Shown: piece by piece, positions 19,736 through 21,805 of the stretch | Layout of the letters: each line of letters starts with the position of its first letter | How positions within the stretch are numbered: position 1 is the first letter of the stretch | DNA from: an alpha proteobacterium BAL199 | GTDB lineage: Bacteria; Pseudomonadota; Alphaproteobacteria; Thalassobaculales; Thalassobaculaceae | Direction: 5' to 3' | DNA length: 64,000 bases | Assembly (NCBI GenBank): GCA_000171835.1 | Contig: ABHC01000001.1 | Location: 186,001 to 250,000, forward strand | Program-made: the position numbers and the translations under genes | The notes under the pieces: model-generated | Seen by the model: only the letters and a program-made list of their open reading frames with translations | Told to the model about the DNA's origin: nothing | Databases searched by the model: none

Positions 19736-21076
19736 TTAGGCGGACGGACGAGCCTCGGCCGAACGCCTCGGGCGCCGGTTGCTGTCATTGCTCGACGACT
19801 TGCCCTGCGGCCGGCCGCGACGTTGCGCGTCCTGCTGCGGGCGACCGCCACCGCCGCCGTTGTTGTTGCGGCGGGCACGCTGCGAAGCGGCTACCGGCGG
19901 CCGGCGGCCGGAGCGGTACTGCGCTTCGATTGCGGTGTCGTGGAAGCTGTGGGTCGAGTCGACGTCGATGGTGCGCCGGATCTCCGACTCGATCGCCATG
20001 AAGTTACCGATCTCCTCGTTCTCGCAGAACGAGACCGCAATCCCGCCAGCGCCGGCGCGCGCGGTGCGGCCGATGCGGTGGATGTAGGTTTCCGGCACGT
20101 CCGGCAGGTCGAGGTTGATGACGTGGCTGATCTCGTGCACGTCGATGCCGCGCGCCGCGATGTCGGTCGCCACCAGGATCGGCAGGCGCCCGCGCTTGAA
20201 GGCGTCCAGCGCAGTCTGGCGGGCACCCTGGCTCTTGTTGCCATGCAGGCCCTCGGCCGTCAGGCCGTCGCGCCGCAGTGAATCGACCACGCGGTCGACA
20301 CCGTGCTTGGTACGGACGAACACGATGGCCCGGCTGACGTCGGGTGCGCCCAGCAAGCGGGCCAGCAGGGTCCGCTTGTTGGCGCGTGCGACGAACATCA
20401 CGCTCTGCTGGATGCGTTCGATCGGAGTCGAGGTCGGCGTGATCTGGACCCGTTCCGGATTGCGCAGCAGGCTCTCGGTCAACTCGATGATCGACTGCGG
20501 CATGGTCGCCGAGAACAAGGCAGTCTGCCGGTTTGCCGGCACCAGGGCAGCGATCCGCTTGACGTCGCGCACGAAGCCGAGGTCGAGCATGCGATCGGCC
20601 TCGTCGAGCACGAAGTACTCAACCTTGTCGAGGAACACGGCGCGCTGATTGATCAGGTCGAGCAGGCGACCCGGGGTCGCGATCATCACTTCGACGCCGC
20701 GCTGCAGGGCGACCGCCTGGGGCCGCGCCGAAACGCCGCCATGGACCAGGGCGTGGCGCAGGCCGATCGAACGGCCGAAGGTCTCGACGACCCCGGCAAT
20801 CTGAACGGCCAGTTCGCGGGTCGGTGTCAGGATCAGCGCACGCGGCGCCTTGGGGATGCGCTTTTCGCCGGCCGCAGCCAAGCGGTGCAGCATCGGCAGG
20901 GTGAATGCCGCGGTCTTTCCGGTCCCGGTTTGAGCCAGGCCGATCAGATCACGACCGGCCAACAGCGGTGGAATCGCTGCGACCTGAATCGGGGTGGGGG
21001 TCGTATAGCCGCACGTGGCGGCGGTCCGCAGAAGCGACTCGGCGAGGCCGAGCGAGCGGAAATCTTGAACAGTCAT
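19736..21076 (-). CDS. rhlE: DEAD-box ATP-dependent RNA helicase (RhlE-like)
   Basis: A 446-residue helicase with all core motifs: Q motif (PTPIQVAAIPPLL), Walker A AQTGTGKT (about 46-53), PTRELAVQI, the DEAD box in VLDEADRMLDLGF, SAT (FSATMP) and the C-terminal HRIGRTARAG. The tail is Arg/Gly/Asn-rich, as in cold-shock helicases that bind RNA or ribosomes. It is the third gene in line after cspA and infA, all on the minus strand, which fits unwinding of RNA structure in the cold. Met at 21076 fits the family start better than the one at 21088. Confidence 0.9.
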   Translation of the reverse strand: MTVQDFRSLGLAESLLRTAATCGYTTPTPIQVAAIPPLLAGRDLIGLAQTGTGKTAAFTLPMLHRLAAAGEKRIPKAPRALILTPTRELAVQIAGVVETFGRSIGLRHALVHGGVSARPQAVALQRGVEVMIATPGRLLDLINQRAVFLDKVEYFVLDEADRMLDLGFVRDVKRIAALVPANRQTALFSATMPQSIIELTESLLRNPERVQITPTSTPIERIQQSVMFVARANKRTLLARLLGAPDVSRAIVFVRTKHGVDRVVDSLRRDGLTAEGLHGNKSQGARQTALDAFKRGRLPILVATDIAARGIDVHEISHVINLDLPDVPETYIHRIGRTARAGAGGIAVSFCENEEIGNFMAIESEIRRTIDVDSTHSFHDTAIEAQYRSGRRPPVAASQRARRNNNGGGGGRPQQDAQRRGRPQGKSSSNDSNRRPRRSAEARPSA

Positions 21077-21116: not shown

Positions 21117-21395
21117 TCAACGGCGCTTTCGCGGGGGAGGACGCCGCACGCCTGGCCCGGGGGCTCCGGCGCGTTCGTCCTTGTGTCGGAAGTTGATGCG
21201 CCCCTTTGTAAGGTCGTAGGGCGTCATCTCGACGGTCACACGGTCTCCCGCCAGAATACGGATCCGGAACTTCTTCATCCGGCCGGCGGTGTAGGCAATG
21301 ATATCGTGACCGTTATCGAGCTCTATCCGGTAGAGCCCATCCGGTAGGACGTCTTTCACGACGCCCTCGAATTCAATTAGATCGTCTTTGGCCAT
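21117..21395 (-). CDS. infA: Translation initiation factor IF-1 (paralogue)
   Basis: A 92-residue S1-fold protein: '[20 protein letters not shown]' and '[20 protein letters not shown]' in part followed by '[18 protein letters not shown]' are standard IF-1. The canonical length is about 72; here a 20-residue basic, Pro/Arg-rich tail is added. Many alphaproteobacteria carry two infA copies, one of them beside a cold-shock gene, as here. It should bind the 30S A site and, with the linked CspA and helicase, support initiation at low temperature (inference). Confidence 0.93.
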
Positions 21396-21424
21396 GCTCG
21401 CTCCTCAGCGGTTGGCGGAGGGAC

Positions 21425-21447
21425 GCGCCCGGCCTGCGGCCGGGCGC
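21425..21447 (-). terminator. Strong GC hairpin between cspA and infA
   Basis: GCGCCCGGCC and GGCCGGGCGC form a perfect 10-bp stem with a 3-base loop, 20 bases after the cspA stop. No T-tract follows on the minus strand, so it is more likely a partial terminator or a 3'-end stabiliser that lets cspA mRNA accumulate above infA. Confidence 0.5.
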
Positions 21448-21466
21448 GAGTTCGAGCGGTGCCCAG

Positions 21467-21673
21467 TCAGAGGGGACGCAGATCGGTAGCGGCATACTTG
21501 CCGTTGCGACCGCGCTCGACATCGAACGAAACCTTCTGACCCTCGTTGAGGGACGCGATTCCGGCGCGTTCAACAGCCGAGATGTGGACGAAGACGTCCG
21601 CGGAGCCATCCTCGGGCTCAATGAAACCATAACCTTTGGTCGCGTTGAACCACTTAACAGTACCGGTAGCCAT
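21467..21673 (-). CDS. cspA: Cold-shock protein (CspA family)
   Basis: A 68-residue cold-shock domain with RNP1 (KGYGFIEP, residues 13-20) and RNP2 (VFVHIS, 27-32), the nucleic-acid binding motifs. It would act as an RNA chaperone. The start at 21673 follows GGGAGA with 7 bases between. The upstream leader contains an inverted repeat that covers this ribosome binding site. First gene of a cspA-infA-rhlE run. Alphaproteobacteria carry several CSP paralogues, so the exact one is not defined. Confidence 0.95.
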
Positions 21674-21680
21674 TGGGGTA

Positions 21681-21747
21681 TCTCCCAAACGTGGAACATC
21701 CCGCCGCATCTTTGCAGCGAGGGGTAATCAAACTGCAGTTTGGGAGA
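21681..21747 (-). promoter_or_regulatory. cspA leader: candidate RNA switch hiding the ribosome binding site
   Basis: In the transcript, UCUCCCAAAC (21747-21738) is perfectly complementary to GUUUGGGAGA (21690-21681), whose GGGAGA is the ribosome binding site 7 bases before the AUG. The 5' arm also lies inside a 14-base palindrome CAAACTGCAGTTTG (21742-21729) that can form its own small hairpin. The two structures exclude each other, so one state hides and the other frees the site. E. coli cspA mRNA is a known thermosensor; this one is inferred only. Confidence 0.5.
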
Positions 21748-21805
21748 AAACCAACTTCGCGGTCGTGCCGTGACTCGGAGACACCCAAGCGCGTTCGATT
21801 GCGCC

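Follow-up and report, generated by a model that had tools for sequence, protein, structure and literature searches.

Temperature-dependent folding of cold-shock mRNAs is known in detail from Escherichia coli. In the expression platforms of translational riboswitches, a shared strand pairs either with the Shine-Dalgarno (SD) sequence or with an upstream competitor (sequestrator and anti-sequestrator). The E. coli cspA mRNA is described as a cis-acting thermosensor with an open form in the cold and a less accessible form at 37 °C (Giuliodori et al., 2010, as cited in PMC9947658), and CspA itself helps the closed cspA fold to be translated in the cold (PMC9947658). Among alphaproteobacteria, the 227-nt 5′ UTR of Agrobacterium tumefaciens cspA has been called a thermosensor on the basis of a match to the Rfam cspA family and a Northern blot (PMC3738593), and the Sinorhizobium small RNA GspR acts on cspA5 at its SD region (PMC5928217).

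We analysed a 64,000-nt stretch of the genome of the alpha proteobacterium BAL199 (hereafter the window), whose minus strand carries cspA at 21467..21673 (68 aa; cold-shock domain, Pfam PF00313, E 7.7e-27), a paralog of infA (IF-1) at 21117..21395 (92 aa; PF01176) and a DEAD-box RNA helicase at 19736..21076 (PF00270 and PF00271; start codon uncertain). The infA paralog adjoins cspA in both congeners of the window species (G001 and G002), where the order cspA, infA paralog, DEAD-box helicase is also found, and the helicase is likely in the same operon as cspA. The infA behind cspA is the longer paralog; the genome also has a second, shorter infA, at G000:C64:82068-82295. Between cspA and the infA paralog, positions 21424-21448 of the minus strand hold a very stable perfect hairpin (CGCGCCCGGCC GCA GGCCGGGCGCG) with no U run, which may serve as a partial terminator or in RNA processing or stability.

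The promoter-like sequence proposed in an earlier, sequence-only reading of this DNA is present on the minus strand as TTGCGC (21834-21829), a 17-nt spacer and CATATA (21811-21806), and both hexamers are kept in all three species. Conservation is far stronger in the leader than upstream of the promoter, where the three sequences no longer align well. The TTG of the -35 hexamer lies at -36 or -37 relative to UCGA in 23 of 26 leaders from families f1, f10 and f44, and at -36 or -35 in eight of nine Rhizobiales leaders, a spacing that would set UCGA at the extreme 5′ end of transcripts in these groups; Rhodobacterales differ. From this conserved spacing, the window transcript probably starts at about 21800-21797, upstream of 21738, which agrees with the earlier claim that the whole element described below sits in the leader.

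Within that leader (all features on the minus strand), the anti-SD arm UCUCCCAAAC (21747-21738) is a perfect 10-bp complement of the SD arm GUUUGGGAGA (21690-21681), which contains the ribosome site GGGAG (21686-21682) upstream of the cspA AUG (21673-21671); this complement, like every other position given in the sequence-only reading, had been correctly located. Dinucleotide shuffling produced Watson-Crick pairing of this length (10 bp) between the upstream leader and the SD region in 4 of 3000 cases, and none of the 101 other starts of long ORFs in the window has such a helix; with G-U pairs counted, 369 of 3000 shuffles reached this length. On the Watson-Crick count, the helix is unlikely to have arisen by chance. 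Both arms are kept in the two congeners except for one A->U change in G001, which breaks a pair and reduces the contiguous helix to 8 bp. The shuffles, the other starts and the congeners all support the proposal that the SD can be sequestered in this way. No covariation of the SD helix was found within the window's genus, and no coevolution of SD/anti-SD complementarity was seen in the f1/f10/f44 set; the strong SD helix is characteristic of the window's genus. In G001 and G002 an in-frame ATG, absent from the window species, overlaps the end of the SD (GGGAGATG; L002:1617-1626 and L003:1617-1626), three codons before the cspA start.

When the window construct includes 36 nt of coding sequence, the SD helix has a predicted probability of at least 0.85 across 5-60 °C (0.96 at 50 °C and 0.85 at 60 °C). 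We therefore rejected a zipper-type RNA thermometer, in which the SD helix melts on heating. The same persistence would fit a one-state SD hairpin that only the ribosome, CspA or the operon helicase opens, giving autoregulation without an intrinsic switch, as would the presence of a DEAD-box helicase downstream in the operon and the help that CspA gives to translation of the closed cspA fold of E. coli in the cold (PMC9947658). Because a one-state hairpin leaves the conserved 5′ end of the leader and its UUUGAU stretch unexplained, we consider it improbable.

The sequence-only reading had proposed two mutually exclusive folds, with the 5′ arm of the SD helix folding alone as a 14-nt palindrome (CAAACTGCAGTTTG, 21742-21729) in the second. 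Two such folds exist, but the palindrome is not the competitor. It shows no significant fold alone, its hairpin probability not exceeding 0.05 between 5 and 60 °C (ViennaRNA), and it is not conserved, a stem pair being broken in one congener and the loop altered in the other; on these grounds the palindrome hairpin was rejected as the second fold. Folding with the SD forced open, and folding of growing prefixes, identified instead a helix made by the 5′ end of the leader, in which AUCGAAC..UUGGG (21799-21784) pairs with CCCAA..GUUUGAU (21744-21727) and occupies the bases that hide the SD. In its outer part, P1, the arm AUCGAAC (21799-21793), at the putative transcript 5′ end, pairs with GUUUGAU (21733-21727); the UCGAA core of the first arm is invariant in the family described below, and UUUGAU of the second is conserved across families. 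In P2, UUGGG (21788-21784) acts as an anti-anti-SD and pairs with CCCAA (21744-21740), the part of the anti-SD arm common to both folds. A hairpin, P3 (21721-21700), lies between P1 and the SD.

The partner of P1/P2 overlaps the anti-SD exactly in the window's genus. There, its 3′ stretch varies at two sites only (A->U in G001 and U->A in G002), both of them unpaired in the 5′-end fold of the window species. In prefix folding, the open fold was the first to appear in all three species, which suggests that it would be made first in each. Because the SD of the window leader is still able to form a weak local hairpin in the P1 fold, open here means free of the long helix rather than fully bare.

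The two folds of the window leader lie within about 4 kcal/mol of each other. With 0, 3 or 60 nt of coding sequence, the 5′-end fold is predicted to prevail in the cold, its probability being 0.97-0.98 at 10 °C, 0.22-0.59 at 37 °C and 0.09-0.38 at 42 °C; from 12 to 36 nt, the SD-closed fold is favoured whatever the temperature. These probabilities point to two folds of similar energy in the window sequence. The sequence-only reading had taken the pattern for that of a thermosensor, which is plausible: for the window leader, cold favours the open fold at three of the six transcript lengths modelled, whereas the leaders of G001 and G002 are predicted to be closed at almost all lengths and temperatures. 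The modelled shift from open to closed on warming has the direction expected of a cold-shock gene, and it is not robust to transcript length or species. Temperature is a plausible trigger of the fold choice on these predictions.

We then built a covariance model (R1) from 20 leaders stripped of SD and coding sequence, the window sequence among them, and ran it over 385 alphaproteobacterial genomes. R1 matches the whole leader element of the window at 21800-21686 (minus strand; 57 bits, for a training member), where P1 (putatively 5′-terminal UCGAA with UUUGAU) and then P3 stand directly upstream of csp; csp leaders of f10 and f44 have the same layout. At E <1e-3, R1 found 13 places in the 385 genomes, 10 of them directly upstream of csp genes, including those of families f52, f54 and f79, all outside the training set. 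In named records, R1 also matches the csp leaders of Azospirillum ramasamyi (E 1.8e-8), A. brasilense (2.7e-6) and Roseomonas marmotae (9.6e-6). With weaker matches upstream of csp genes in f61 and f36 among the 385 genomes, the leader lies directly upstream of csp in six alphaproteobacterial families and, less clearly, in two more. The three exceptions at E <1e-3, not directly upstream of csp, are L276, L277 and a second site in G078. This last match (L266:2891-3004, minus strand, also L236:2909-3022; E 3.4e-6) lies 1.3 kb from the csp match of the same genome, on the opposite strand and upstream of small ORFs without a Pfam match.

Applied without guidance to an alignment of 23 leaders, RNAalifold picks both P1 and P3. 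In an alignment of 38 members, which was fitted to R1 and is biased towards the model, standard pairs fill 90.3% of pair cells, compared with 80.2% in shuffles and at most 47% when the pairing is slid, and there are 47 two-sided pair changes, compared with 14.0 and at most 15, respectively. Most of these fall in P3, where seven of eight pairs have two-sided changes. An unfitted MAFFT alignment (A4) gives the same picture, with 22 two-sided cells against 9.4. In P1, two pairs have two-sided and three have one-sided changes across the 38 members. Compensatory change in relatives, which the sequence-only reading had named as a check, is thus strong in P3 and weaker in P1, but none was found for the SD helix in the genus. 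A conserved block that is merely promoter or DNA-level sequence, with a helix arising by chance and no RNA function, would account for the joint conservation of the promoter and the 5′ element. The two-sided changes in P3 largely refute it, the changes in P1 are compatible with pairing, and a model holding no coding sequence finds csp genes in other families; we regard this account as very improbable.

Other searches delimit the family. Searched for as DNA in other genera of the order, the leader gave no match, and of 385 genomes only that of the window has, upstream of csp, the 5′ element in a strict pattern that keeps the window's spacing; the wider family was detected only through family-wise searches and the covariance model. 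The conserved 5′ block was rejected as a genome-wide box, since its class-wide matches (at most one mismatch) are scattered and mostly within coding sequence; outside the genus, none of them adjoins a csp gene. CUGG/CCAG was rejected as a further helix in f44, where no convincing covariation was seen by eye. No Rfam family reaches its gathering score in the window leader or in eight other loci examined, and no paper describing this csp leader was found in the open-access literature. The element is a real, conserved and uncatalogued csp leader, and its P1/P3 architecture is shared across families.

Two genomes of one genus in the window's family (G006 and G015) have the infA paralog without a csp gene before it, and the region upstream of this paralog carries a 5′ block, TCGAACGCGATTGGGCGTTTC, one base from that of G001. 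At L118 (1276-1520, plus strand) and L121 (minus strand), from genus g5 of that family, TCGAACGCGATTGGGCGTTTC stands at promoter distance before an infA paralog that no csp precedes, and UCCCAACCGUCUGAU follows later. The g5 region is possibly the same leader with csp lost or gained. R1 gives no clear match to the infA leaders of L118 and L121 (best 5.9 bits), though the 5′ block matches.

The core U-A and C-G pairs of P1 never vary in the 38 members, and the invariant core includes one G-U pair. Such constancy, beyond the needs of pairing, also fits sequence recognition and argues against a choice between folds. The 5′-terminal UCGAA, UUUGAU and P3 might therefore form a binding platform or 5′-end stabiliser for CspA, another RNA-binding protein or a small RNA, with the SD helix of the window's genus acting mainly as a constant damper. 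The dominance of the closed fold in the congeners, the absence of SD coevolution in f1/f10/f44 and the targeting of the cspA5 SD region by GspR (PMC5928217) are in keeping with a platform. Against it, the P1 arms remain complementary across lineages, one variable P1 pair being C-G, U-A, U-G and G-C, and the P1/P2 partner overlaps the anti-SD exactly in the window's genus. We judge a platform rather unlikely, yet a serious contender.

Further csp leaders of the class resemble this layout. Those of Rhizobiales begin AUCGA and have a matching CAA..CGA stretch. At nine Rhizobiales loci (L040, L052, L056, L059, L060, L071, L075, L077 and L108) the start reads AUCGAUA(C)UUUG or similar, and the complementary stretch adjoins a pyrimidine-rich, anti-SD-like run; for L075 and L077, the SD is predicted to be far more exposed at 10 °C than at 37 °C. 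The leaders of Rhodobacterales have UCGACC..CUG and CAG..UCGAUC: at L034-L104, UCGACC..CUGUCUCC and CAGUC..UCGAUC blocks are conserved about 110 nt upstream of the start codon, in a region with a strongly covarying hairpin and a UCUCC stretch that covaries with the SD.

Across 62 leaders, a P1-like arm fits the partner in its own leader better than the partners in other leaders; none of 5000 permutations, with kinship ignored and arms located by pattern, did as well. Covariation of the SD with the upstream domain in Rhodobacterales was unmatched in 3000 permutations (kinship ignored), and three control regions were not significant. We take the arm matching and the SD covariation as hints rather than proof. 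Homology to the window leader is not claimed for these further leaders; on those of Rhodobacterales, RNAalifold does not pick P1. It is tentatively conceivable, at somewhat less than even chances, that alphaproteobacterial csp leaders share a class-wide layout, with lineage-specific sequences (Azospirillum-like, Rhizobiales, Rhodobacterales), in which the mRNA 5′ end pairs back against an SD-sequestering stretch, as a switch opened by cold whose construction differs from that of E. coli cspA.

The folding models and the conservation make a csp leader with a translational on/off fold the likely reading of the window. As polymerase leaves the promoter, AUCGAAC..UUGGG would pair with CCCAA..GUUUGAU, taking the anti-SD bases; P3 would form after P1/P2, and the SD would thus be free of its long helix. 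Once the SD emerges, CCCAA may switch to UUUGGGAGA, closing the ribosome site. Cold would favour the long-range 5′-end fold and slow the exchange, so that translation of csp would go on in the cold and be damped on warming. What we have computed are the helices, how they are conserved and the standing of P1/P3 as a cross-family csp leader; that fold exchange controls translation, with temperature (perhaps together with CspA or the operon helicase) as its driver, is what we infer from them. To the fuller proposal, our best explanation, that this conserved structured leader sets translation by a choice between two folds of which cold favours the open one, we give roughly even odds.

A second, alphaproteobacterial leader design would, if true, provide an independent test of the repeated evolution of cold sensing by mRNA. 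The leader has a searchable model and offers defined positions for mutation; should a protein or a small RNA be the trigger instead, R1 still marks its target site in many genomes.

Set beside E. coli cspA (RF01766), the window leader is likewise a structured csp leader, proposed to be open in the cold and less accessible when warm, but its own putative 5′ terminus would be the competing strand and its SD helix lies within the leader. Membership in RF01766 was rejected: the score is 50-50.6 bits against a gathering threshold of 78, the aligned part is the coding sequence and a downstream hairpin only, and the leader alone gives no match up to E 10. A. tumefaciens cspA, set beside the window leader by description, is likewise an alphaproteobacterial csp gene with a long leader and a thermosensor assignment, whereas no P1/P3 architecture is described in the accessible part of that report (PMC3738593). 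GspR and cspA5 also exemplify translational control at the SD of an alphaproteobacterial csp mRNA (PMC5928217), but GspR acts in trans, whereas the SD complement of the window leader sits in the same transcript. As in translational riboswitches, one strand of the window leader has two alternative partners, the SD and an upstream competitor; in contrast to them, no ligand domain was identified in the leader.
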